Part shown: one piece after another, positions 3,103 to 41,315 of the stretch | Position numbering within the stretch: the stretch's first letter is position 1 | How the letters are laid out: each line of letters starts with the position of its first letter | NCBI GenBank assembly: GCA_017460365.1 | Contig: JAFUBE010000001.1 | Span: 1-41,315, forward strand | Length of the DNA: 41,315 nt | Source of the DNA: Eggerthellaceae bacterium | GTDB taxonomy: Bacteria; Actinomycetota; Coriobacteriia; Coriobacteriales; Eggerthellaceae | Direction of reading: 5' to 3' | Position numbers and translations under genes: made by a program | Notes under the pieces: model-generated | Seen by the model: the letters and a program-made list of their open reading frames with translations, nothing else | Told to the model about the DNA's origin: nothing | Databases searched by the model: none

Positions 3103-3976
3103 GCTACGGCCTGCCTTACCAGGGAAGCAAGTCGGCGATCGCTGATTGGGTTATAGGCGTGCTGCCCGCGTCGCATACGCTCGTTGACCTTTTCGCGGGC
3201 GGCTGCGCGGTGACCCACGCGGCGCTCGCTTCGGGCAAGTTCGATCACGTCATGGCGAACGACCTCACGGCTGCGCCGCGCGTGTTCCTCGCCGCCACCG
3301 AGGGCGATTTCGAGGGGTATGCGACCGTTCCCAATCGGGGCGAGTTCTTCGATTCCGATGACATCGTGATGCGGCTGCTCTACAGCTTCGGGAACGACAA
3401 GAGCACATACCTATGGTCTGCGGAAACCGAGGAGTTGAAGATCGCGGCGTCGCGCATGCTCTCGGCTCCGTCCATGCACGAGCGGCGCATGTACTTCAAG
3501 GAGTTCTGCGACCGGTTGGCTCGGGGGGGGGGTCTCTCAATAGCATGGAGCACATCGAAGGCATTCAAAGGCTCGAACGGCTGCAGGGCTTGGAGCGCCT
3601 TGCGAGGATGCAGGGGCTTGACGGCATGAAGGGCATCGAGCGATTGGAGATATTCCAGGCCGATTACCGCCTCGTGCAGGTGCCGAAGGGCGCTACCGTG
3701 TACGCCGACCCGCCTTACAGATCGACCGCGAACAGCAAGCGATACACGGGCGATGACGAGCCGTTCGACTTCGACGCCTTCGACGCATGGCTCGCGTCGG
3801 TCGATTTCCCCGTGTTCGTGTCGGAGTACGACGCGCCGGCGGGATGCGTCGAGTACGCCGCGAAAACGCGTCCGTCATCGATGGCGGCGACCACGAACGT
3901 AAAGCGGATCGAGCGCATCTTCATACAGGAGCGCTTCGCCGCCGAGGCGGCCGGCATGAAGGAGACGCTGTTTTGA
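3099..3976 (+). pseudogene. DNA adenine methyltransferase (D12/Dam class), split by a frame change at a G10 tract
   Basis: The first frame (3099-3629) has the YQGSK entry motif (residues 7-11) and the S-adenosylmethionine loop VDLFAGG (29-35). The second, ending at 3976, has the catalytic DPPY motif (YADPPYRSTA, about residue 204 of the joined product). They meet at ten consecutive G (3523-3532). One G more, two fewer, or a -1 ribosomal slip joins them into a ~292-aa protein of normal Dam size. With ten G read straight, the protein stops at 3629 without DPPY and should be inactive. After the tract comes a Leu/Arg/Gly-rich repeat (RLERLQGLERLARMQGL) in the target-recognition region. No partner restriction enzyme is nearby. 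A sequencing error, a phase-variable tract or programmed frameshifting all fit. Confidence 0.85.
3523..3532 (+). repeat. Homopolymer tract G10 inside the methyltransferase gene
   Basis: Ten G in a row, the longest mononucleotide run noticed in the window. It sits exactly where the two halves of the methyltransferase change frame. Zero-frame reading is CGG GGG GGG GGT, which offers slippery GGG codons and is also a hotspot for slipped-strand length change. Confidence 0.95.
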
Positions 3977-5184
3977 TCCCCGTATCGGCAAAACATATCA
4001 GCGGTGACACATGGGAAGTCTCGCTTCCAAGGGTCAAGAGCGCGGTCAAGCACAAGGACAGCATCAGGCCGCGCCGGCGGATTCATGCGGCAGACCGAGC
4101 CGACGCGATCAGGCAGGGCGAGGAGCTTTTCGAGCGCGAGTACGCCATGTACAAGATGGGCGTGACCATGAACCTCGCAGACCTCGCCGTTTACTTCATC
4201 GACCATGCCGAGGCCGACGGCACCTACACGCCAGAGACGGCGCGGGACTACCGGGGCATCGTTCTCCGCTACGTCGAGCCGAACTTCGCGAAGGACGCCG
4301 ACCAGGTGACGGCAATCGACATCGAACGGCTCTACGCGCACCTGCTGACCGACGGCGGCCGCAACGGCGACGGCATCAACCCGAACACCGTCCACAAGCT
4401 GAACACGGTTCTGCGTGCGACGTACGCGTTCATCACGCGCGAGAACCCGGCCATATCGAACCCGATGCCATCGGTCGAACTTCCGGCGCGGGTTCACCCC
4501 GACAAGCGGGCGCTCACCGACCGCGAGTTCGTCAAGGTGCTCGAAGGTCTTGAATCGGCGCTCGGCGAGGAACCGAGCGACGCCGCCGGAATCAAGCGCC
4601 GAAACATGCTGTTCGGCGCGTACCTAGGCATCCACATGGGCGCTCGTGTCGGCGAGGTGTGCGCGATCACGCGGGGCGGCATCCGCGCCATCGAGCACGC
4701 TGCGCGCCTCGACCACTCAATGAGCGAGAAGGGCGGGCTGCACCGCAAGAAGCCGAAGACGAGATCATCGCGGCGCACGGTCGCCATCGACTCCGCGCCA
4801 TGGGAAATGCTCCGCAAGCACTACGAATGGCAGGCGAGCTACCTCACGGACAAGCAGCGCGACAGCGACGGCACGCCCGTGTGCTGCAAGGCGGACGGCG
4901 GCTTCATAGCGCCGAGCGACATGAGCGCGGCCTTCAAGGGCTTCTGCGCGTCGGTCGGCGTCGAGCTTGCCGACGGCGAATCGTTCCACGTCTTGCGCCA
5001 CACGCACGCGACGCAGCTCCTGTCGAACAAGGCAAACCCGAAGGAAGTGCAACAGCGCCTCGGGCATTCGCGCATCGAAACGACGTTCGAGTACAGCCAC
5101 GTCATGCCGGGAGAGGACGCCGCCACGGCGACCGAGTACGGCGCGATCGTGGAGCGGGCGCGGAAGGCGGGCGGTTTCCGATGA
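3973..5184 (+). CDS. Tyrosine recombinase / phage integrase family protein
   Basis: A 403-aa protein with a SAM-like core-binding domain (about residues 66-165) and a catalytic domain (about 180-395). All catalytic residues are visible: Arg225 in GARVGEV, a Lys near 260 in HRKKPKT, His339-x-x-Arg342 in HVLRHTH, His365 in LGHS and the nucleophile Tyr374 in TFEYSH. The start is TTG at 3973, overlapping the methyltransferase stop (TTGA), with AAGGAG 9 bases upstream. It is therefore intact and translated with the early genes. The phage also has a serine integrase, so this enzyme may serve another job such as dimer resolution, inversion or a second attachment site, or be a former integrase. Confidence 0.92.
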   Translation: MIPVSAKHISGDTWEVSLPRVKSAVKHKDSIRPRRRIHAADRADAIRQGEELFEREYAMYKMGVTMNLADLAVYFIDHAEADGTYTPETARDYRGIVLRYVEPNFAKDADQVTAIDIERLYAHLLTDGGRNGDGINPNTVHKLNTVLRATYAFITRENPAISNPMPSVELPARVHPDKRALTDREFVKVLEGLESALGEEPSDAAGIKRRNMLFGAYLGIHMGARVGEVCAITRGGIRAIEHAARLDHSMSEKGGLHRKKPKTRSSRRTVAIDSAPWEMLRKHYEWQASYLTDKQRDSDGTPVCCKADGGFIAPSDMSAAFKGFCASVGVELADGESFHVLRHTHATQLLSNKANPKEVQQRLGHSRIETTFEYSHVMPGEDAATATEYGAIVERARKAGGFR

Positions 5185-8017: not shown

Positions 8018-8423
8018 GGCCATCCCGCTGTTCTGCATCGGCCTCCTCGTGGTGATGGCGGTCATCGCGCTCGGCGCGCACGTCAAGGACGCGAGCGCAT
8101 CCGAGGTAACGCGGTTCCCGGAAGACCGCTATTTCGTGAGCGTGAGCGACAAGACGAACGCGGCTGCGGCCGAGCGCATGCGCCACGACTCGGAGAAGGC
8201 GCGGGCATCCGAAGTCGCTGCAGCGATCGCAGAATTCAAGGAATCCGAACGTATGGCGGCAGAACAGGATGAAGCCGAACCCGCTTACATAGACGTAAAC
8301 GATTACAGTGAACCCGCATACGGCTACATCGAGCCGTCATGCGATTACGCGCCGACCGACGGCCTCACACGCGAGGGTGGCGTGAACTACTACGACGGTC
8401 GCATCGAAACCTATGTTGTTTGA
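7995..8423 (+). CDS. Secreted or membrane-anchored protein, 142 aa
   Basis: An N-terminal hydrophobic segment (about residues 10-28, IPLFCIGLLVVMAVIALGA) is followed by a signal-peptidase-like ALGAHVKDASA region. The rest is hydrophilic: a charged helix (about 55-90) and a Tyr/Asp/Glu-rich tail. It overlaps the ParB-like gene by 23 bp and the radical SAM gene by 11 bp. An ATG at 8007 is an alternative start; neither has a strong ribosome site. It would be exposed on the outside of the cell or anchored in the membrane. The function is unknown. Confidence 0.65.
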   Translation: MAIPMTNRAIPLFCIGLLVVMAVIALGAHVKDASASEVTRFPEDRYFVSVSDKTNAAAAERMRHDSEKARASEVAAAIAEFKESERMAAEQDEAEPAYIDVNDYSEPAYGYIEPSCDYAPTDGLTREGGVNYYDGRIETYVV

Positions 8424-9174
8424 CCATCCCGATCTAGCCTATGCAAGTAAGGTATTCGACTTTACTCCTGACCTCGCGTACGTTCCCGACTGCGAACTTA
8501 TGAAAGGCGGGAGTGGATACAGCCTCACGAGGAAGGTTGAGCTACCCGATTACGAACGAATAATGCCTGACTATTCGCTTTATGGATGCGAGTACGCGAT
8601 CGGTAGATTCACGCGCGGTTGCCCGAACCGATGCCCGTGGTGCATCGTCCCGAAGATGGATGGCAACGAGGTTCGTCATGTCGCCGATCTAAATGACTTT
8701 TGGTCGGGACAAAAAGTTGTGAGGCTGCTTGATGACAACATCATGGCCGATCCCGATGAGTTTATCCGTGACTGCGAACAGCTGTCAAAGGCAGGGGTTC
8801 ACGTCATCTGGGAAGCTCTCGATATCAGATTGGTTACTGACAATACCGCTCGTGCGCTCGCGAGCGTGAAGCAGGACAAGTGTATTCATTTCGCCTGGGA
8901 CAGCCACAGCCAAGATGATGCAGTTCCTAGAGGGATTGAGACGTTGGCTAGAGCGGGTATTAAGCCATATCGACTCATGTTCTACGTACTCGTCGGTTTC
9001 AACACGGATCGAGATTATGACCTTTACAGGATATACACCATACGTGATCTCGGCGCTAATCCGTTTGTCATGCCCTTCGATAAAACCGATCGATACCAAA
9101 AGAACCTCGCTCGTTGGTGCAACAACAAGATCATCTTCAAGAGCACAAGTGATTTTAAGGACTATCGACCATGA
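8413..9174 (+). CDS. Radical SAM protein, N-terminally short
   Basis: GCPNRCPWC (Cys70, Cys74, Cys77) is the CxxxCxxC motif that holds the 4Fe-4S cluster of radical SAM enzymes. DFWSGQKVVRLLDDNIMA and the later VLVGFNTDRDYDLYR segment fit the TIM-barrel of a family I recall from gut phages. Those proteins start with a further ~40-50-residue B12-binding-like region (LALMK...YHK) that is absent here; this protein begins at the LAYASKVFDFTPD segment that normally follows it. The DNA is more AT-rich than its neighbours, suggesting separate acquisition. The substrate is unknown; a tRNA, DNA base or peptide modification is possible. Confidence 0.8.
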   Translation: MLFDHPDLAYASKVFDFTPDLAYVPDCELMKGGSGYSLTRKVELPDYERIMPDYSLYGCEYAIGRFTRGCPNRCPWCIVPKMDGNEVRHVADLNDFWSGQKVVRLLDDNIMADPDEFIRDCEQLSKAGVHVIWEALDIRLVTDNTARALASVKQDKCIHFAWDSHSQDDAVPRGIETLARAGIKPYRLMFYVLVGFNTDRDYDLYRIYTIRDLGANPFVMPFDKTDRYQKNLARWCNNKIIFKSTSDFKDYRP

Positions 9175-20782: not shown

Positions 20783-21938
20783 GGGAAGCATCATCGAGGG
20801 CGGCAACTCGTGGATTTACGATTTCCTCGGGATCAGCTACACGGCATCCGAGTCGTTCGTCCAGCAGCTTCGGGCGGCTGGCGGCGATGACGTGATCGTG
20901 GAGATCAACAGCCCTGGCGGCTACGTTGCGCCGGCAGCGGAGATTTACGAGGCGATCCGCACGTATCCGGGCCACATCGAATGCCGCGTGGTCGGGCAGG
21001 CGGCCAGCGCGGCGAGCATCATCGCGTGTGCGGCCGAAAACTCAATCACGCCCATGGGCACATTCTTCATGCACAACTGCATCGGCTCGGCGTCCGGGAA
21101 CCACAACGACATGCGGCAGACCATGCATGCCATGGAATCGATTGATGAGAACATCATGGAGGCATACCGCGCGAAGACCGGCATGAGCGACGAAGAGATA
21201 TACGCGCTCATGGAAGAGAACACCACGCTTAATGCGCGGCAGGCCGTGAAATACGGCTTTATCGACAGGGTTACCGATAGCGCAGCCGACATTGCGCAAG
21301 CCAACAGCGCCGTTACCGGCATTGCGGCGAGCGCAGGCGGTTTCGTTGACCTCATGGCCATAGACGCTGACCGTCTCGCAGCCATGCGGGAAGCTTACGA
21401 GAACAGCAGAGTTGCGAGCGGCGAAGGGGGTGAAACTATGGAAAAGGACAACATGAGGGACGAGGCCGCAGAAACCACTGAGGAACAGGCCGAGGAAACC
21501 GAAGCTGCCGAGGAAACCGAGGGCGCGGCGCAAGCCGAAACCGAAGAGGAAACCGCCGAGGAAACCGAAGCCGCCGAGGAAACCGAGGGCGAGCAGGCCG
21601 AATCCGAAGAGGATCAGGCCGGTGAGCTCGAAGCGGCCTACCAGCGCGGCGTGCTCGCAGAGCGCGAGCGCATTTCCGGCATTCTTGACATTGCGGCCAA
21701 GGTGCCCGATGCAATGGTTCGGGCGGCGCTCTTCACTGAGCCGATCAGCGCAGAGCAGTTGGCGCTTGCCGCCATGCGCGCCGAAGACGCTGAGCGCACG
21801 GGCTATTTCGCCAAGGCGTGCGCGGATGTGGACGCATCCAACAGCGGTCAGGTTGCCGCCGAGGTAACCGACAACGCGAACGACGCGAGCAACGAAGTCG
21901 ATATGCTGGCGGCAATGTTGAAGGAAAGATTCGAATAG
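20760..21938 (+). CDS. Head maturation protease (ClpP/S14 type, lambda gpC-like) with C-terminal scaffold
   Basis: A 392-aa protein. Residues 1-190 form a ClpP-like protease: VEINSPGGYVAPAAEIYEAI, the nucleophile Ser83 in VGQAASAAS, His105 in FFMHNCIG, then the usual AVKYGFIDRV. Residues ~227-300 are an extreme Glu/Thr/Ala repeat (EETEAAEETEG and variants) and 300-392 are helical, like a scaffold. A strong internal start (see 21438) implies that the scaffold is also made alone, as lambda Nu3 is within C. The protease would process the prohead and then destroy the scaffold. Confidence 0.9.
   Translation: MAIRIAVKGSIIEGGNSWIYDFLGISYTASESFVQQLRAAGGDDVIVEINSPGGYVAPAAEIYEAIRTYPGHIECRVVGQAASAASIIACAAENSITPMGTFFMHNCIGSASGNHNDMRQTMHAMESIDENIMEAYRAKTGMSDEEIYALMEENTTLNARQAVKYGFIDRVTDSAADIAQANSAVTGIAASAGGFVDLMAIDADRLAAMREAYENSRVASGEGGETMEKDNMRDEAAETTEEQAEETEAAEETEGAAQAETEEETAEETEAAEETEGEQAESEEDQAGELEAAYQRGVLAERERISGILDIAAKVPDAMVRAALFTEPISAEQLALAAMRAEDAERTGYFAKACADVDASNSGQVAAEVTDNANDASNEVDMLAAMLKERFE
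21438..21938 (+). CDS. Nested capsid scaffold protein (Nu3-like) from an internal start
   Basis: ATG 21438 lies in the frame of the protease gene (codon 227) and is preceded by AAGGGGGTG at 7 bases, a better ribosome site than most genes here. The 166-aa product starts MEKDNMRDEAAE, with an acidic Glu/Thr/Ala repeat and then helices (LEAAYQRGVLAERERISGIL). This matches the lambda C/Nu3 arrangement, where the scaffold is the C-terminal part of the protease gene. Confidence 0.7.
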   Translation: MEKDNMRDEAAETTEEQAEETEAAEETEGAAQAETEEETAEETEAAEETEGEQAESEEDQAGELEAAYQRGVLAERERISGILDIAAKVPDAMVRAALFTEPISAEQLALAAMRAEDAERTGYFAKACADVDASNSGQVAAEVTDNANDASNEVDMLAAMLKERFE

Positions 21939-32955: not shown

Positions 32956-33528
32956 ATGTCCGACAGATACGACGACATCGAGAGCCTGTGGTTGCTGCCG
33001 GAGTTCATGCGATCTGACGCGTTCGATGCCGAGATGTCGGCGATCGTCGACGACTTCGGGGCCGACGTTTCTGCGGCGACGCGCACGTACAGCGTTTGGG
33101 ACTCGATCGACGTTCTCGGCGAAGCGACGCTCGACGCGCTCGCCGAAGAGCTCAACATCATCTGGTACGACAAGACCGCAGATGTCGAGGCCAAGCGCGG
33201 TGTTGTCAAGAACAGCAAGCGAATACAAGCCGCGCTGGGAACGAAGTGGGCGCTCGAAGAGATCCTGAACATCTACTTTGCCGGCCGCGCGGTGATAACC
33301 GAATGGTTCGACTACGGGGGCGACCCGAACCACTTCATGGTAGAAGCGGAGAGCTTTAGCCGGGGCGACGAGGAAGCCGAGAAGTTCCTCGCCGTGCTCA
33401 GCGGAGTGAAGCGGAAGTCAGCCGTACTCGATGGGGTGATCGCAACCATCGGGTCGGAATCCACTGTTCATGCGTCCGTCTGGGCGCATGGTCGTCGAAC
33501 CGACGAAATGACCGTAAGGAGGGACTGA
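32956..33528 (+). CDS. Tail protein I (P2 gpI-like)
   Basis: A 190-aa protein of the Tail_P2_I family: LWLLPEFMRSDAFDAEMSAI at the start, the central DALAEELNIIWYDKTADVEA with W-Y-D as expected, RGVVKNSKRIQAALGTKWAL and the later IYFAGRAVITEWFDYGGDP. It starts two bases after the gpJ stop, and its stop overlaps the fibre gene's ATG by one base (TGATG). It connects fibres to the baseplate. Confidence 0.92.
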   Translation: MSDRYDDIESLWLLPEFMRSDAFDAEMSAIVDDFGADVSAATRTYSVWDSIDVLGEATLDALAEELNIIWYDKTADVEAKRGVVKNSKRIQAALGTKWALEEILNIYFAGRAVITEWFDYGGDPNHFMVEAESFSRGDEEAEKFLAVLSGVKRKSAVLDGVIATIGSESTVHASVWAHGRRTDEMTVRRD

Positions 33529-35267
33529 TGATTCAGACGTTGACGGAACTGGGCTCGCAGCTACTCGCCGACGCGCTCTCGAGCGAGGAGTCGGTCGAGT
33601 TCACGCGCTGCGCGGTCGGCACCGGCTCGTTCGACCCGGAAGAAGACGACCCAAGCGAGATGGAGGAGCTTATAGCCAGGGCTGCATATATCCCGGTGAC
33701 AGCAGTGCGCAGAGAGGACGGCGGACTAGCCGTCGTCGCAGACATGGACAACACGACGGTCGCCGGCGGCACGGAGATAAGCGAGTTCGGTGTGTACGCC
33801 CAAGCCGAGTCGAGTGACGAGGTGCTGTTCTCATACGCGTACACAGACGAGCCCGAGGTCGTGCCGGCGTCCAGCGAGTCTACCTACGAGCGCAGGTTCC
33901 TGTCGCATTTCGTGCTATCTGACGAAGAAGCTGAGCTTGCGATCGTCTACGACAGCATCGCGGAGGCGATGGAGCAAGCTGGCTACATAACCGCCGATGA
34001 CGTGCAGACTGCGATCAACGCAGCTCTCACATCCGTGTTCAGGTACAAGGGGGTGAAATCGTCGGCGGCAGAGCTACCGGCAACCGGGAACAAAGTCGGC
34101 GATGTTTGGTTCGTTTCTTCCGACAACTCCGAGTACGCATGGAACGGCGAAAGGTGGGAACAGCTCGGGTCGGCAAACGGAGCTCCGGCGTCGCCCACCG
34201 GCATGGTCGCGGAGGCGACGGGAAAGACCACCATAAGGATCAAGTGGAGCGACCCGGAAGAAATGACGTATTCTAACGGGGCGTACTCGGTATGGAAGGC
34301 GACGGCTTTAGTACGAAAGACGGGTTCGACACCACAAAGCCCGTCAGACGGCACGCTCGTGACCATGTCGACCACGCATGACGCTTACGCCACGAGCGGA
34401 TACCAGGACACGGGGCTAGAGAATGGGACGACGTATTTCTACGCGGCGTTCCCGATCTCTGCGGGCGGCGCTATAGGCGTCGCGGCAACGTCGTCGGCTA
34501 CCCCGTCGTGGTCGGCTGTGTCCTGGGCGAACAGCTCGTTTAGCGACATTGTTTCCATGATCGAGGCACATTACTCCGGCGAGATCAGCCTTTCCGATTA
34601 TTGGAGCGTCGGCGACACCCGCACCGTCCCGCTATCGGCCATGGAGGCGACCGGCGTCGGCGAATCGCATGTCGCGCAAGATGTAGAGGTCGTGCTAATG
34701 GACTTCGACCATTACGATCTCACGAGCGCGCAGAAGACGGCGCTCGGCACGTCCAAGACGAAGGCCGCTGTCGTCTGGGGGTTGAAGAACTTCCTATCGA
34801 ACGGCACGGCCGGCGAGTACGGCTACATGGAGAGCACCAACACCAACGCGAACGGCTGGCACGGCTCCGCGCGGCGAACATGGTGCCAGAACGTGTTCAA
34901 GGCAGCGTTGCCGAGCGCGATGCAGTCGCTGCTTAAAGAGGTAAGCATCGTCACGGCAACGAAGGGCAACGCACGGGGAACAACTGCGAGCTCCGATTAC
35001 ATCTTCCTCCCCGCCGAGAAGGAAGTGTTCGGAACCAATACCTACGCGAACTCGACCGACGAAGCATCGCTTTCGCAGTATGAATGGTACGAAACGGCAG
35101 AGAATCGCATCAAGAAAGCCGGCGCGGAAGGTAGCGCGGCCACTTGGTGGGAGCGTTCCCCTCGCGGTTCCAACGCGGCCTACTTCTGTGCTGTCTACTC
35201 CGACGGCACCGCCGATCTCTACAGCGCCAGCGGCTATGTTGGCGTCGCGCCCTGCGGCTGCTTCTAA
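33528..35267 (+). CDS. Tail fibre / receptor-binding protein, DGR target with C-terminal variable C-type-lectin-like domain
   Basis: A 579-aa protein. Residues 1-160 are a P2 gpH-like baseplate-binding domain (LTELGSQLLADALSSEESVE, then TEISEFGVYAQAESSDEVLF). About 170-215 is a short helix and a beta motif (GDVWFVSSDNSEYAWNGERW), and 220-320 a fibronectin-III-like domain. Residues 340-579 are a DUF6273-type domain of the C-type-lectin/formylglycine fold: SVGDTRTVPLSAM, NFLSNGTAGEYGYMESTNTN, CQNVFKAALPSAMQSLLKEV and IFLPAEKEVFG. The last 45 residues (535-579) are the variable repeat, ending GVAPCGCF. Diversified residues there would form the host-binding face. Confidence 0.92.
   Translation: MIQTLTELGSQLLADALSSEESVEFTRCAVGTGSFDPEEDDPSEMEELIARAAYIPVTAVRREDGGLAVVADMDNTTVAGGTEISEFGVYAQAESSDEVLFSYAYTDEPEVVPASSESTYERRFLSHFVLSDEEAELAIVYDSIAEAMEQAGYITADDVQTAINAALTSVFRYKGVKSSAAELPATGNKVGDVWFVSSDNSEYAWNGERWEQLGSANGAPASPTGMVAEATGKTTIRIKWSDPEEMTYSNGAYSVWKATALVRKTGSTPQSPSDGTLVTMSTTHDAYATSGYQDTGLENGTTYFYAAFPISAGGAIGVAATSSATPSWSAVSWANSSFSDIVSMIEAHYSGEISLSDYWSVGDTRTVPLSAMEATGVGESHVAQDVEVVLMDFDHYDLTSAQKTALGTSKTKAAVVWGLKNFLSNGTAGEYGYMESTNTNANGWHGSARRTWCQNVFKAALPSAMQSLLKEVSIVTATKGNARGTTASSDYIFLPAEKEVFGTNTYANSTDEASLSQYEWYETAENRIKKAGAEGSAATWWERSPRGSNAAYFCAVYSDGTADLYSASGYVGVAPCGCF
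35131..35264 (+). repeat. DGR variable repeat (VR)
   Basis: 134 bp at the very end of the fibre gene, aligned without gaps to the template repeat at 35849-35982. The two differ at 23 positions, 22 of them A in the template: for example AAC to GCC, CGC, TAC, CTC and GGC, and AAT to GCT, GTT and TAT. The one other change is C to T near the 5' edge. The last 24 bases before the stop are nearly invariant and GC-rich, as expected for the site where mutagenic copying begins. Confidence 0.97.
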
Positions 35268-35279
35268 TATCCTAACCAT

Positions 35280-35303
35280 CGCCTCCGGCGTTAGCCGGAG
35301 GCG
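35280..35303 (+). repeat. DGR-type hairpin/cruciform downstream of VR
   Basis: CGCCTCCGGC (35280-35289), loop GTTA, GCCGGAGGCG (35294-35303): a perfect 10-bp stem with a 4-nt loop, 15 bp after the VR and 12 bp after the stop. DGR targets in other phages carry such short inverted repeats with 4-nt loops just past VR, and they raise retrohoming. It could also end transcription, but no T-run follows. Confidence 0.8.
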
Positions 35304-35343
35304 TTAAAGGGTATAGGCGGTTTTTCGGTTATTATGGGGTCTT

Positions 35344-35832
35344 ATGAGCGTACCGACACATGAAAGAGAACAGTCGCTCGCGCAGTTCGTGGAGACGGCT
35401 CGCGTGCTGAACGTCGAGATCGCGCAGACGGTAGCCAACGGGCCAAAGAAGTACATGCTCACCTATGGCGACCGGCTCGTGAACCTCGCGCTCGATGTGT
35501 ATTCCGAAACCATCCAGGCGAACTCGATTCACCCGTCGAAAGGCGTCCGCGCCGAGGCCGACTATCTTCAGCGGCGCGCCCACTTGATCGAAGCGCGCGC
35601 CAAGACGCATGCGGTCGCAGCGCTCGCGCAAGTCTATTTCGAGGTGTTGAAAGCCGCTCGCGGTCTGCAGCGCAATAAGGGTGAGATCATGGAGAGCGAC
35701 GAGAAGATCGCCCGTCGGTCGAAGCTGAACTCGCGAATGGAGCGGATCGGTGCCATCTGCGACAAGGAAATCAGACTTATTAGCGGGGTGCTGAAAAGTG
35801 ACACGGAGCGGTTTCGGAAGTACAATAGCTGA
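35344..35832 (+). CDS. avd: DGR accessory variability determinant (Avd-like) protein
   Basis: A 162-aa, all-helical protein: SLAQFVETARVLNVEIAQTV, YGDRLVNLALDVYSETIQAN, RAEADYLQRRAHLIEARAKT, FEVLKAARGLQRNKGEIMES and a fifth helix (NSRMERIGAICDKEIRLISG), with basic residues throughout. It sits between VR and TR, where Avd is found. Avd proteins are four-helix-bundle pentamers that bind the template RNA and the reverse transcriptase. This one is longer than the usual ~125 aa. Assignment rests on position and fold type more than on motifs. Confidence 0.8.
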   Translation: MSVPTHEREQSLAQFVETARVLNVEIAQTVANGPKKYMLTYGDRLVNLALDVYSETIQANSIHPSKGVRAEADYLQRRAHLIEARAKTHAVAALAQVYFEVLKAARGLQRNKGEIMESDEKIARRSKLNSRMERIGAICDKEIRLISGVLKSDTERFRKYNS

Positions 35833-35848
35833 CGGTTACGCCTCGGAT

Positions 35849-35982
35849 GTAGCGCGAACAACTGGTGGGAGCGTTCCCCTAACGGTTCCAACACGACCAA
35901 CTTCTGTAATGTCAACTCCGACGGCACCGCCAATAACAACAACGCCAGCAACAATAATGGCGTCGCGCCCTGCGGATGCTTC
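35849..35982 (+). repeat. DGR template repeat (TR)
   Basis: 134 bp in the same orientation as VR, 16 bases after the avd stop. Read in the VR frame it has 14 AAC/AAT codons, ten of which lie in the second half. Adenine-mutagenic copying of AAY codons can reach 15 or more amino acids without creating stops. The 3' end (CGTCGCGCCCTGCGGATGCT) differs from VR by a single A to C, the usual IMH/IMH* type of difference. The RNA made here is the mutagenesis template and need not be translated. Confidence 0.97.
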
Positions 35983-36147
35983 CCGAAAGCCCAAGGCGAG
36001 TAACCACGGCGAAAGCATACGGGCGTCGCGCGCCGCAAGGCGCGGCGAGAGGATGCAGGGAGGCGTGACCATGGCCGCAAGGCCGAATGAACGCCGCCGC
36101 TCGCGTGGGGGCTTGCGCTCGCGCGATACGGCATACGCCGGGGCGGC
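35983..36147 (+). ncRNA. Spacer of the DGR template RNA between TR and reverse transcriptase
   Basis: 165 non-coding bases between TR and the RT start. In the Bordetella phage DGR the corresponding spacer RNA is needed for priming and for binding Avd-RT. Here it holds several GC-rich, self-complementary stretches (for example around 36018-36060, with GCGTCGCGCGCCGCAAGGCG) that could form the required structure. An ORF running through TR and this spacer (35798-36154) is of low complexity and not believed. Confidence 0.6.
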
Positions 36148-37284
36148 ATGCTGACCTTCGATGAGGTGTTCACCTTCGAACACCTCTACGATTGCGCCCA
36201 CGAGTGCTGCAACGGCGTTCGCTGGAAGGCATCGACGCAAATGTTCGAGAGTTCGGTGCTGATATGGGTCGCTCGTCTCAAAGACGAGCTGGAACGCGGC
36301 GTGTACCGGTCGAAGGGCTTCAACCACTTCACGATCGTGGAGCGCGGGAAGACCCGACACATCCAGTCGATACACATAAGCGAGCGAACCGTCCAAAAGT
36401 GCCTCGTGCAATACGCCCTGCGCCCGCTCATCATGCCCAAGCTCATAGCATCGAACCACGCAACGCTTCCGGGGCATGGCACGGAAACGGCGCTGAAGGA
36501 GCTGCGCGAGCACCTGCGATGGTGGCACGCGCGGCACGGCCGCGCGGGCGGCGTGCTCGTCATGGACTACCACGACTATTTCGGGAGCGTCAGGCACGAC
36601 GAGCTGAAGGCCATGTACCGAAAGCTCGACATGGACGATCGGCTGTACGACATCACCTGTTACTTCATCGACTGCTTCGAGGGCGATACGGGTTTGGGAC
36701 TCGGGAGCGAGATCAGCCAGATTTCGGCGGTGTTCTACGTCAACCCGATAGACCATTTCCTGAAAGACACCATGGGCTTTCACTGTTACGGGCGCTACAT
36801 GGACGATTCCTATCTGATAGGCGAAACCGATGACCTGGTGCTCGCGTTGGGGTGCGTTGAATCGCTCTCGCTCGCGCGCGGATTGACCCTGAACCCGAAA
36901 GCGACGAACATCACGCGCCTCGACGGAGGATCGTTCAAGTACCTCAAGAAGCGCGTGTTCGTGTCGGAAACGGGAAAGATCGTGATGCGGCTCGACCGGG
37001 CGAACATCGCCCGCGAGCGAAAGCGAATCAAGGCAAACGCCCGCAAGCTCGCCGAAGGCGAGATCACGGGGGAATCGGAGTACCAGTCATGGCAATCGTG
37101 GCAATCCTACGCGTCGAAGATCGACGCGCACAACACCGTGAACAGGATGGCCGCCGAGCGCGACGCCGCCCTGGAACGCGCATTGAAGGCACCCCCCCGC
37201 AGGCTGATTTGCCGAACCGAAGCTAACCTCGACCCCCGCTCCCGCGGGGGTTTTTTAATGCCCGAACACAGCGATTACCGATAG
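36148..37284 (+). CDS. DGR reverse transcriptase
   Basis: A 378-aa protein with reverse transcriptase motifs in order: R/K fingers near 50-75, Asp140 in VLVMDYHDYFGS (motif A), the DGR-specific GLGSEISQISAVFYVN with Ser190-Gln191 where retroviral enzymes have another pair, the catalytic YMDD (217-220), and LTLNPKAT...SFKYLKKRVF in the palm/thumb. The (I/L/V)GxxxSQ motif separates DGR enzymes from group II intron ones. It copies the TR RNA with adenine errors and directs cDNA into VR. A perfect intrinsic terminator lies in its last 18 codons. Confidence 0.96.
   Translation: MLTFDEVFTFEHLYDCAHECCNGVRWKASTQMFESSVLIWVARLKDELERGVYRSKGFNHFTIVERGKTRHIQSIHISERTVQKCLVQYALRPLIMPKLIASNHATLPGHGTETALKELREHLRWWHARHGRAGGVLVMDYHDYFGSVRHDELKAMYRKLDMDDRLYDITCYFIDCFEGDTGLGLGSEISQISAVFYVNPIDHFLKDTMGFHCYGRYMDDSYLIGETDDLVLALGCVESLSLARGLTLNPKATNITRLDGGSFKYLKKRVFVSETGKIVMRLDRANIARERKRIKANARKLAEGEITGESEYQSWQSWQSYASKIDAHNTVNRMAAERDAALERALKAPPRRLICRTEANLDPRSRGGFLMPEHSDYR
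37233..37256 (+). terminator. Intrinsic terminator inside the 3' end of the RT gene
   Basis: CCCCCGC (37233-37239), loop TCCC, GCGGGGG (37244-37250), then TTTTTT. This is a classic rho-independent terminator, but it precedes the RT stop (37282-37284) by 26 bases. Most transcripts would end without a stop codon. The true RT gene may have ended earlier and been extended by a lost stop. Confidence 0.85.
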
Positions 37285-37294
37285 GGGGTGGGAA

Positions 37295-37639
37295 ATGGAA
37301 CAGGTCATCCAGGCCGAAACGGCATGGCTCTACATCATGGGAATCTGCGGAGCGATCATCACGCTCGGCGGCGCTATCGCCGTCCTCGTGAAACTGTACC
37401 GATGGGTTCGCAAGCCGAGCGCCGAGAACACCGACAGCATCGAGCAGATGATGGACTACCTCGCATCCGACAAGCGCCGCATCGAGGCGCTTGAGCGTAG
37501 GCAAGACGAACAGGAAGCGGAATCGAAGCTGATGCTCAAGAGCCTCATGCAAATCATGAGCCACGAGATAGATGGAAACCACAAGGAACAGCTCCGCGTC
37601 ACGCGAGACGAAGTGGAGCAGTTCCTAATCGACAAGTAG
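37295..37639 (+). CDS. Holin-like / membrane-anchored coiled-coil protein, 114 aa
   Basis: One transmembrane helix (residues 11-34, AWLYIMGICGAIITLGGAIA and VLVK) is followed by a basic turn (YRWVRKPS) and a long helix with a heptad pattern (IEQMMDYLASDKRRIEALER and KLMLKSLMQIMSHEI). The layout is common in the lysis cassettes of phages of Gram-positive hosts. GGGGTGGG lies upstream of the ATG. It may be a holin or a holin regulator. Confidence 0.65.
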   Translation: MEQVIQAETAWLYIMGICGAIITLGGAIAVLVKLYRWVRKPSAENTDSIEQMMDYLASDKRRIEALERRQDEQEAESKLMLKSLMQIMSHEIDGNHKEQLRVTRDEVEQFLIDK

Positions 37640-37652
37640 AGAGGTGATACCC

Positions 37653-38000
37653 ATGGCGGATCATACAAGAGTTCCGTACGGCGAAATCGCGAAGGTGGAG
37701 GAATACGACGATTTCGATGACTACGACGATTTGGAAATCGGGAAGGCGAAACCGGCGTACAGCAAACTCGTAGTCGCTACATGCCTCGTGCTGATCCTCG
37801 CGTTCACGGTGACGTGCCTCGTTTTCTATTGGTACACGAAGGCGGTTGACCCGGTGCTCATCGGGTTCTTCTTCGCTTGCTTCGGCGTCGAGTTCGCGTC
37901 CCTCGCGTTCATCAAAGGCCGCGAGGTCAGGTACGTCGAGGGCAACCCCGCGAACAAGCAGATGCCGCATGTCGAGCTAAAGGAGGGCGAAGATGACTAG
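37653..38000 (+). CDS. Membrane protein with two transmembrane helices, 115 aa (holin-like)
   Basis: An acidic N-terminus (VEEYDDFDDYDDLEI) precedes two hydrophobic helices: about 40-62 (KLVVATCLVLILAFTVTCLV) and 68-89 (DPVLIGFFFACFGVEFASLA). The C-terminus is hydrophilic. GAGAGGTGA precedes ATG 37653; an in-frame GTG at 37644 is part of that ribosome site. Two-helix proteins beside an endolysin are often holins or antiholins. Confidence 0.65.
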   Translation: MADHTRVPYGEIAKVEEYDDFDDYDDLEIGKAKPAYSKLVVATCLVLILAFTVTCLVFYWYTKAVDPVLIGFFFACFGVEFASLAFIKGREVRYVEGNPANKQMPHVELKEGEDD

Positions 38001-38280
38001 GAACGATTTCATCCGCAAGATCACGAGCCGCAAGTTCTTGTTGAGCCTCGCGGCGTTCATCGCGGTTTTCTGCACGGGCGTCGCCGGTGTCATGCCGCCC
38101 GAATGGTGCGCCGTTGGAATGGCGCTATCTGCAGGCATATACGCGGCATGCGAGGCGTACGTGGACGGCAAGAGCGCTGGCGCGTCGCAGACGATCAGCA
38201 CCACGAGCGTCAGCGCATCGGCAACGTCTCAAAAGGTCGTAGAGAAAGCAATCGTCCCCGATTCCAAAGAGGCGGCGTAG
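37993..38280 (+). CDS. Putative holin, 95 aa
   Basis: A basic start (MTRNDFIRKITSRKF), a first hydrophobic helix (LLSLAAFIAVFCTGVAGVM), a short loop (PPEWCAVG), a second weaker helix (MALSAGIYAACEAYV), then a Ser/Thr-rich tail. This is the usual build of small holins of Gram-positive phages, and it lies immediately before the endolysin gene. AAGGAGGGCG precedes the ATG. It overlaps the previous gene by 8 bp. Confidence 0.7.
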   Translation: MTRNDFIRKITSRKFLLSLAAFIAVFCTGVAGVMPPEWCAVGMALSAGIYAACEAYVDGKSAGASQTISTTSVSASATSQKVVEKAIVPDSKEAA

Positions 38281-38282
38281 CA

Positions 38283-39218
38283 ATGGGGAGCATCCAAAAG
38301 TTCTGCGATGCGATGCGATGGGCCGCGAACAGCGATCAGGTAGGCTACTCGCAAACCGACCGCGACAGCCTGCGCCCGAACGATTTCTTCGGGAACGGGC
38401 TGTACAACACCGACTGTTCGAAGCTAACCATCGTAGCCTTGCAATACGCCGGCTTTGAAACCGGCTGGGCGAGCTACACGGGCAATATATCCGACGCGCT
38501 CTGTGCTAACGGATGGCAGCGGCTTTCGCCGTGGTCAGACCGGCAACCGGGCGACATCCTGCTAAACGACGCCAACCACGTCGCCGTATGGCTCGGTGAT
38601 TGCCTAGCGCAAGCGTCGATTGACGAGAACGGTAACATCGCGGGCGGCGCTCGCGGCGACCAGACGGGTTCCGAGGTGAACACGTGCGGTTTCTACAACT
38701 ACCCGTGGAACTGCATCCTGCGGCACACGGGCAGCAGCGATTACAGCGGCGCGCCCTCGGGCTGCTCCGCTGGATCGGGCGCGCCCTCGGGCGGCACCGT
38801 CGGCTGCTGCTGGCAGGGCGACATGGTAGGCAGGCGCGATACGACCGGGAGCGGCGACGATTACGCTGGCGTCCCAGGCAGGCCGATTCTCAACATCGCC
38901 ATGGATGGCGTCGGCGAATACCAGGTTTCCGATACGATTCACGGTGATTTCTGGCCGAAGGTAAACCACTACGACCTGAACGACCCCGAGAACGGATATG
39001 CCGGCGACGATAGGCCAATTGACCGCGTTCGCATCTTCGACCCGACCGTGAGCTACCAGCTCCACGAGATTTACGGCGACTGGTACCCCGTCATGCAAGG
39101 CACGCACGACACGGGCGGTTCGAGCGATGACTTCGCCGGCGAGAAGGGCGTGCAGTTCGATCTTTTCCGGGCTTGGCGCGATGACGGCGAACAGCCGCGA
39201 TACAACGTGTACAGCTAG
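38283..39218 (+). CDS. Endolysin, NlpC/P60- or CHAP-like amidase with C-terminal wall-binding region
   Basis: A 311-aa protein. Residues 1-155 are a cysteine peptidase-type amidase (Amidase_5/NlpC class): Cys45 in NTDCSKLTI and His99 in DANHVAVW, after PGDILL, form the active site. A Gly/Ser/Cys-rich linker (about 157-185) follows. The C-terminal half holds two similar stretches, RPILNIAMDGVGEYQVSDTI and RIFDPTVSYQLHEIYGDWYP, each near a DDYAG/DDFAG motif, suggesting duplicated wall-binding repeats. It cuts peptidoglycan once a holin opens the membrane. Confidence 0.85.
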   Translation: MGSIQKFCDAMRWAANSDQVGYSQTDRDSLRPNDFFGNGLYNTDCSKLTIVALQYAGFETGWASYTGNISDALCANGWQRLSPWSDRQPGDILLNDANHVAVWLGDCLAQASIDENGNIAGGARGDQTGSEVNTCGFYNYPWNCILRHTGSSDYSGAPSGCSAGSGAPSGGTVGCCWQGDMVGRRDTTGSGDDYAGVPGRPILNIAMDGVGEYQVSDTIHGDFWPKVNHYDLNDPENGYAGDDRPIDRVRIFDPTVSYQLHEIYGDWYPVMQGTHDTGGSSDDFAGEKGVQFDLFRAWRDDGEQPRYNVYS

Positions 39219-39616: not shown

Positions 39617-41284
39617 TTACGCTGCATCAAGGGTGACCATTATGCCAAATCCATTATCAAGGAAGACTACCGGCACACCGCGAGCTGTAATTATTGAGCG
39701 TTTGATTTGGTTCGTTTTATCTTCGTCAGGGGGGAGCCAGAGACTAGATTCTCGAACCTGCTTTTGACCTGCGGGTTCGAGAATTTGTTTTAGTGCGCAA
39801 TTGATTTCGTAGGGCGTGCTGGTCTTGCCTTGGAAATTCATAACGGCCATTGCGTGATTCTCCGAAACCCAAACTTGGGAAACGAACGCCTTCAATAACT
39901 CCTCGTCCGTGCGCATGCCGCTCGCAACAAGCTCTAAGAACTGCAATACATCCGCTTTTGTGATCTCGCATTTCGCCCGCTCAAGTTCGGCGATCTTCTT
40001 CTCCGTCACCGCTTGCTGTTCATCGAGCTTTTCCATCTTGTCTTTAATATGCTTGTATGGAATCCCGTCCTCGATTGCTTTTATGAATCGCCTACGCTGC
40101 TTGTCGATTTCTTTCAAGCTGGCGTTCAGCGCTTCGATTGTCGCCTCGGGTTTCCTGTTGCCCCGGTATTTCATGAAACCGTCGGCGATCAGCTCCGCAA
40201 CATCGGGTTTCACTAATATCTTGCGAATCGTCTTTGCGATTGCCGACTCAACCTGATCTTTCCAGTAAATGCCGTTGCAGGCTTTACGCTTGCCCTGGCA
40301 ACAATACCGATAGAACAGCACTCCGTCATGATTCGTGCATACCTCCCCGTGCATCGGTCGGCCGCATTCGGAGCAGAACAGCTTTCCCGAAAGCATGTAA
40401 TCGGCTTTCGCGTTCGCGTGTTTCCGGTACTTCAACCTCCATAGGCACCGTTCCTTCTCGTCTTTCGTGACGATAGCCGGCACTCCATCTTCGACGCGCA
40501 CAAGCGGGATCGGCTTCCCGTCGGAATCCTTCACGACGCTCCCCCGCTCGTCCTTCAGCTTGCCCCATGTGTACACGCCCGCGTAGACCATGTTCTTCAG
40601 CACTCCCGTAACGAACGTGTTGCCCACGGGCTTACCACCCGCTCCCCGAACCTCGATTCGGTTGAGCCAGCCAACGATGTCTTTCTGCGATTGTCCCTGG
40701 ATGTACCTCATGTGTATCTCGCGCGCAATAGGAGCTTCGACCGGATCGAGTATGATCTCGTCGCCGTCATGCGAGTAGCCGAACCAATGGATGCCGAGGT
40801 ACTGGCATTTCTCGGCCTTGCCGAGCATTCCCCTCATCGTGTCTTCAGCGCTTTGCTGTGATCGAACCTGCGCGAATATGGCAAGCATGCCCTTCGACAT
40901 CGACGCTTCGATACTGTTCCCCGATATGTGCTCCTTCACGCTTTCAAGCCGAACGCCTGCATCGTTTATCAATTTCTCGTAATAGTACTGGTCTTGCATG
41001 TTTCGCGCGAAACGATCCATCTTCCAAACGAGCACGACATCGAACGCACCGATTCTTGCATCCTCGATCATCTGAAGGAACTGCGGCCGATCGTCACTTC
41101 GCCCGGATATTGCGAAATCCGGATACACTTTCATAATCTCGTAGTTGCGCTCGGCGCAATAGCGCTTCGCTTCGCGAACCTGATCCTCGATTGATTCGTC
41201 GCGCTGCTTGTCGCATGAGAAGCGGGCGTATACCGCCACGCGTACAGGTGTTTCGCTATCCGTGTGAATTCGCTTGCTTGCCAT
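39617..41284 (-). CDS. Large serine recombinase (phage integrase)
   Basis: A 555-aa protein, ATG at 41284. Residues 14-155 are the resolvase catalytic domain with Ser23 in YARFSCDKQR and the conserved VLVWKMDRFAR (84-94). Residues ~160-270 are the Recombinase domain (KCQYLGIHWFGYSHDGDEII and the later VTGVLKNMVYAGVYTWGKL). A zinc ribbon uses Cys304, Cys307, Cys329 and Cys336, followed by a coiled coil (about 380-445). Such enzymes join attP and attB without host factors, and reverse with a directionality factor. It is transcribed toward the late terminator. Confidence 0.95.
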   Translation of the reverse strand: MASKRIHTDSETPVRVAVYARFSCDKQRDESIEDQVREAKRYCAERNYEIMKVYPDFAISGRSDDRPQFLQMIEDARIGAFDVVLVWKMDRFARNMQDQYYYEKLINDAGVRLESVKEHISGNSIEASMSKGMLAIFAQVRSQQSAEDTMRGMLGKAEKCQYLGIHWFGYSHDGDEIILDPVEAPIAREIHMRYIQGQSQKDIVGWLNRIEVRGAGGKPVGNTFVTGVLKNMVYAGVYTWGKLKDERGSVVKDSDGKPIPLVRVEDGVPAIVTKDEKERCLWRLKYRKHANAKADYMLSGKLFCSECGRPMHGEVCTNHDGVLFYRYCCQGKRKACNGIYWKDQVESAIAKTIRKILVKPDVAELIADGFMKYRGNRKPEATIEALNASLKEIDKQRRRFIKAIEDGIPYKHIKDKMEKLDEQQAVTEKKIAELERAKCEITKADVLQFLELVASGMRTDEELLKAFVSQVWVSENHAMAVMNFQGKTSTPYEINCALKQILEPAGQKQVRESSLWLPPDEDKTNQIKRSIITARGVPVVFLDNGFGIMVTLDAA

Positions 41285-41315
41285 GTATAATGTAACCGCC
41301 TTTCAAATCGCTGCG
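41175..41315. repeat. Terminal direct repeat, right copy (circular-contig overlap)
   Basis: Identical over 141 bases to 1-141. It contains the first 36 codons of the serine integrase and 31 bases upstream. See the left copy. Confidence 0.93.

Follow-up and report, generated by a model that had tools for sequence, protein, structure and literature searches.

A complete, most likely functional BPP-1-type diversity-generating retroelement in the temperate myophage of a presumed Eggerthellaceae host from the gut

Diversity-generating retroelements (DGRs) generally carry C-type lectin folds at their variable repeat (VR), and in viral clades their targets include tail structures (PMC8144416). Homing in phage BPP-1 involves a (GC)14 block, an element of 21 bp in which the template repeat (TR) and VR mismatch five times, and, downstream of VR, a hairpin whose stem measures 8 bp and which is required (PMC3240598). 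A BPP-1 assay with a VR reporter has been carried out in E. coli (PMC12875486). DGRs of E. lenta prophages were published in 2022 and occur in five clades (2, 3, 4, 7, and 10); in one E. lenta DGR, 10 VR sites had changed after the culture was grown in a chemostat (PMC8778435). DUF6273 has already been published as a DGR target in Faecalibacterium phages (PMC11792537).

The stretch of DNA analyzed here (41,315 nt, referred to below as the window) very probably contains a complete, most likely functional DGR of the BPP-1 type, carried by a temperate myophage of a gut bacterium of the family Eggerthellaceae. The following parts of a BPP-1-type element were found: an A-biased TR/VR pair, a DGR-type reverse transcriptase (RT), an accessory variability determinant (Avd), a C-type-lectin-like (CLec-like) target, an IMH-like end, and a hairpin. 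A first-pass annotation of the same DNA had proposed a complete cassette, and the TR/VR pair, Avd-like gene, and DGR-type RT that it named were all present. The cassette order, fibre-avd-TR-RT, is Bordetella-like. Similarities with BPP-1 (mtd-avd-TR-brt) include gene order, 134-nt repeats, A-specific change, Avd fold, and RT family, as well as a G/C-rich IMH with a TR/VR mismatch and a hairpin after VR. In contrast to BPP-1, the target is a DUF6273 fibre rather than Mtd, the 3' end of the repeats contains one mismatch instead of five, the hairpin loop is GTTA instead of GAAA, and the presumed host is a Gram-positive gut actinobacterium.

A repeat search of positions 33000-38500 identified a single long direct repeat, whose two copies aligned without gaps over 134 nt with 83% identity. 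VR (35131-35264, + strand) forms the last 134 nt ahead of the stop codon of a 579-aa fibre gene (33528-35267, + strand) and covers its codons through the last residue, while TR (35849-35982, + strand) starts 16 nt after the avd stop. The copies differ at 23 positions. TR has A at 22 of these and contains 36 A in its 134 nt overall (hypergeometric p = 8.6e-15). In VR, these A residues were replaced by G (10), C (6), and T (6); the lone mismatch at a non-A base is a C to T change at TR position 14. The coordinates and mismatch counts of the repeat pair in the first-pass annotation were reproduced, as was the location of VR at the end of the fibre gene. Its estimate of about 14 AAY codons in TR agreed with the 14 counted in frame, which correspond to a theoretical repertoire of 15^14, or approximately 3e16, stop-free variants. 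The count of 22 mismatches at TR A was also correct; one of the 22, the silent difference at 35258 (repeat position 128), is better read as an IMH/IMH* mark than as mutagenesis. With this position set aside, 21 of 35 A residues would have been mutagenized, in addition to one non-A change.

Profile searches of the target protein yielded a match of residues 3-131 with a PHROG tail fibre (1.4e-15) and of residues 437-576 with Pfam DUF6273 (5.4e-17). An AlphaFold2 (AF2) model of residues 331-579, based on an alignment of 44 sequences, had a pLDDT of 93.6. Its fold matched T. denticola variable protein 1, which is the variable protein of a DGR (2y3c), with Z 7.5 and an rmsd of 4.2 for 138 aligned residues. 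Further fold matches were with the C-terminal domain of Legionella Lcl and, with Z 5-6, many C-type lectins, whereas searching the PDB by sequence alone, with the fibre and its profile, gave no relevant match. The modeled C-terminus of the fibre is best described as a CLec-like target domain bearing VR, joined to a phage tail-fibre N-terminus. From its position and predicted fold, we infer that the fibre tip binds a host receptor. The best fold match of the domain was with the N-terminal domain of an IgA peptidase of Thomasclavelia ramosa (Z 16.1); this match was taken as fold likeness only, and functional kinship with the peptidase was rejected.

The avd gene (35344-35832, + strand) encodes a 162-aa protein, predicted to form a four-helix bundle, that matched the PHROG Avd profile (1.8e-4), as did 38 of its 49 aligned homologues. 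Its AF2 model (pLDDT 90.5) matched BPP-1 Avd (4dwl, Z 12.9 with an rmsd of 1.8 across 106 residues; 8ub8, Z 13.5), while a PDB search by sequence alone, with Avd and its profile, gave no relevant match. S23-family proteins and designed bundles matched the model with scores in the same range as BPP-1 Avd. Since unrelated helical bundles score alike by fold, the specific identification as Avd derives from the profile matches of the protein and its homologues. Profile and BPP-1 Avd fold together supported the Avd-like gene proposed in the first-pass annotation. The RT gene (36148-37284, + strand) encodes 378 aa with matches to RVT_1 (7e-10), PHROG RT (5e-62), and, in the PDB, the BPP-1 DGR RT (8ub7, 6.4e-14). 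Both motifs on which its initial assignment had been based, YMDD and the DGR-type GSEISQ, were present, and a motif alignment showed YMDD and the G-S-E-x-x-Q type to be common to relatives in the family. The 165-nt spacer between TR and RT (35983-36147, + strand) was defined by position only; by analogy with BPP-1, its RNA may recruit RT-Avd and prime cDNA synthesis. Its predicted RNA folding was no better than that of shuffled sequences (z -0.16), and a comparison with Rfam yielded no match.

A second, related cassette was found in the same genome bin, at positions 1-3708 of contig C560 (locus L029, G000:C560). Identities with the window were 87% for RT, 84% for Avd, 94% for TR, and 60-68%, in two parts, for the fibre, which is longer in C560 (709 aa). 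Between the TRs of C560 and the window there are 10 mismatches. Apart from window position 14, each VR was identical to its own TR at non-A sites through position 106, which would be the outcome if every VR were overwritten from its own TR. The C560 VR ceases to match its own TR beginning at position 128 and has G and T at positions 130 and 132, opposite A and A. Because VRs follow their own TR through position 106 and the C560 VR departs at 130/132, the 3' border of transfer was placed at approximately positions 109-128.

The window VR has an IMH-like 3' end (35240-35264, + strand). Repeat positions 110-127 form an 18-nt block that is A-free in TR, contains 15 G/C out of 18, and is identical in TR and VR. 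It is followed by position 128 (35258), a C in VR opposite an A in TR, which is silent in the fibre codon (GGA/GGC). As the C560 VR departs from its own TR at 130 and 132, position 128 was read as a fixed TR/VR mark and, judged from the aligned repeats, is probably an IMH*/IMH difference rather than an adenine mutation. Downstream, a 24-nt hairpin or cruciform (35280-35303, + strand) with a perfect 10-bp stem and a GTTA loop begins after 15 nt between the VR end and the stem. Folded as DNA, it had a z-score of -4.64, and none of 200 shuffled sequences was as stable; each of the 11 other loci in the initial set had an equivalent hairpin. The criteria used for BPP-1-type hairpins were a GC-rich stem of 7-10 bp, a 4-nt GRNA loop, and a location 4-34 nt after VR; the second base of the GTTA loop does not fit the published GRNA consensus. 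This hairpin was absent from the parts list of the first-pass annotation.

To place the window among its relatives, 80 viral and 80 genome loci were taken from RT profile searches. An A-biased TR/VR pair was detected in 141 of the 172 loci scanned, which comprised the profile-search loci and earlier loci. Several pairs of loci had identical TRs and identical sequences over 400 bp upstream, with VRs that differed at TR A in 18/18 (L041/L042), 15/16, 22/22 (L069/L134), 17/17 (L113/L115), 17/17, 19/20, and 23/23 (L190/L192) cases. Because these same-TR pairs differ in VR only, or nearly only, at TR A, the sequence comparison indicated that relatives of the window DGR are active or were so very recently. 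These observations also bear on an ordinary duplication, in which the end of the fibre gene would have been copied and then have diverged by point mutation and selection beside an unrelated reverse transcriptase. Nothing was found in favor of such a history, and its probability is negligible: the divergence is A-only and in one direction (p ~1e-14), the same anatomy recurs in the 141 loci, and pairs with the same TR and different VRs exist. In these sequences, A-bias and family comparison together refute it. An exact-pattern scan of IMG/VR and a search of annotated phages yielded no near-identical copies of the window phage or of its VR/TR; among the annotated phages there was one weak match (MT837512, human faeces).

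Target sites were compared in 109 dereplicated loci, for which mononucleotide shuffles were used and only perfect stems were counted; as the loci share ancestry, the following numbers characterize the clade and do not amount to independent tests. In 76 of 109 loci, a mark with A in TR and C in VR was present, flanked as G[A/C]T. In 63 of these 76 it occupied a third codon position, including 35 glycine codons, in which any base is synonymous. Most loci without this mark had a VR ending in GGCTTC and a TR with GGCTCC. Stems of at least 7 bp within 80 nt past VR were found in 81 of 109 loci, vs. 10 of 411 upstream coding windows and 11 of 105 RT gene ends. The loop form C-N(2-4)-G-Y occurred in 55 of the 81 hairpins, vs. 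5 of the 381 that shuffled sequences yielded, while the published GRNA loop was found in a single one. Whether the target site of this RT clade departs in detail from the BPP-1 rule, with C-N(2-4)-G-Y loops and a recurrent TR-A/VR-C G[A/C]T mark, appears evenly balanced on these data. The literature searched contained no description of either feature, and the loop form and recurrent mark across the approximately 109 related loci may be new. Located just 3' of the constant block, the G[A/C]T mark could act as a minimal IMH*/IMH switch that shields TR.

The same census is informative on the possibility that the stem-loop following VR merely terminates transcription and has no role as a DGR target element. 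Its position directly past a stop codon is consistent with termination, and the terminator likeness of such elements was remarked on by the BPP-1 authors (PMC3240598). However, no T tract follows the window hairpin, and only 6 of the 81 hairpins after VR in relatives have one. Moreover, stems vary among relatives while loops are conserved, and none of the 11 hairpins at RT gene ends has a C..GY loop. A role as terminator only was therefore considered improbable, and interpretation as a DGR target element was retained.

According to the proposed mechanism, RT and Avd would bind an RNA that contains TR, and this RNA would be reverse transcribed, with random bases incorporated opposite template A. 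The cDNA would then replace VR as far as a boundary inside the A-free, G/C-rich IMH block, and the hairpin that closely follows VR would guide this step. The C of VR at 35258, opposite an A in TR, would keep TR from self-targeting. Up to 14 AAY codons on the CLec-like domain of the fibre tip could be substituted in this way (NNY: 15 residues each, no stops), and in the modeled domain such substitutions would be predicted to change what the phage binds.

Target, avd, TR, and RT occur in the same order in most clades of the E. lenta prophage DGRs (PMC8778435), whose host family is presumably also that of the window phage. The window RT, however, has no more than approximately 40% identity with the RTs encoded by other genomes in the family and is closer to that of a Collinsella sp. 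An2 element (57%). By RT sequence, the window phage is a lineage separate from the E. lenta prophage DGRs. As in the Faecalibacterium phage DGRs (PMC11792537), one of which has a target with a tail-fibre-like N-terminus, VR lies at the C-terminus of a DUF6273 protein, but hosts and phages are different. Since E. lenta DGRs and DUF6273 targets were already published, the window DGR is a further example of a known system, which brings a known way of altering host attachment into a further lineage of phages from gut actinobacteria. The related loci provide a data set for refining the target-site rules (hairpin loop and TR/VR mark), which matter when DGRs serve as mutagenesis tools in the laboratory.

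Identical contig ends are a usual sign of circular assembly. The window starts and ends with the same 141 nt (1-141 and 41175-41315, an exact direct terminal repeat) and was therefore interpreted as a complete circular genome of 41,174 bp, with an intact tail-fibre-directed retroelement and a related element in the same bin. Genes for baseplate J and Tail_P2_I precede the fibre gene and a tail sheath is also encoded; this sheath identified the phage as a myophage, in line with the first-pass annotation. We infer, from binning only, that its host is a gut bacterium of the family Eggerthellaceae. Completeness of the genome is relevant to a decayed DGR, which would once have been active but whose RT, Avd, or RNA parts would now be defunct in the window phage. 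The spacer RNA without a significant fold is consistent with decay, as is a same-genus related RT broken by an internal inversion (L030, G117:C13, approximately 3884-4894), in which the middle part, approximately residues 158-242 including YMDD, is inverted in place. However, the phage genome is complete, all ORFs and motifs of the cassette are intact, and TR equals VR at all non-A sites but one, which indicates that copying was recent relative to ordinary drift. Decay was accordingly judged very unlikely, and a functional DGR remained the preferred interpretation. The L030 inversion was also considered as an on/off switch, which was rejected because its borders carry only 7-nt inverted repeats and a misassembly or dead copy is as likely.

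The presence of integrases indicated that the phage is temperate. Two types occur within this one genome, a tyrosine integrase (phrog_1; 3787-5184, + strand) and a serine integrase (phrog_95; 39617-41284, - strand). Elsewhere in the window, the early region encodes a radical SAM protein (8413-9174, + strand; phrog_9298, 4.6e-62), and an imperfect direct duplication with overlapping copies (83 nt, 83% identity) is located at 21468-21613.
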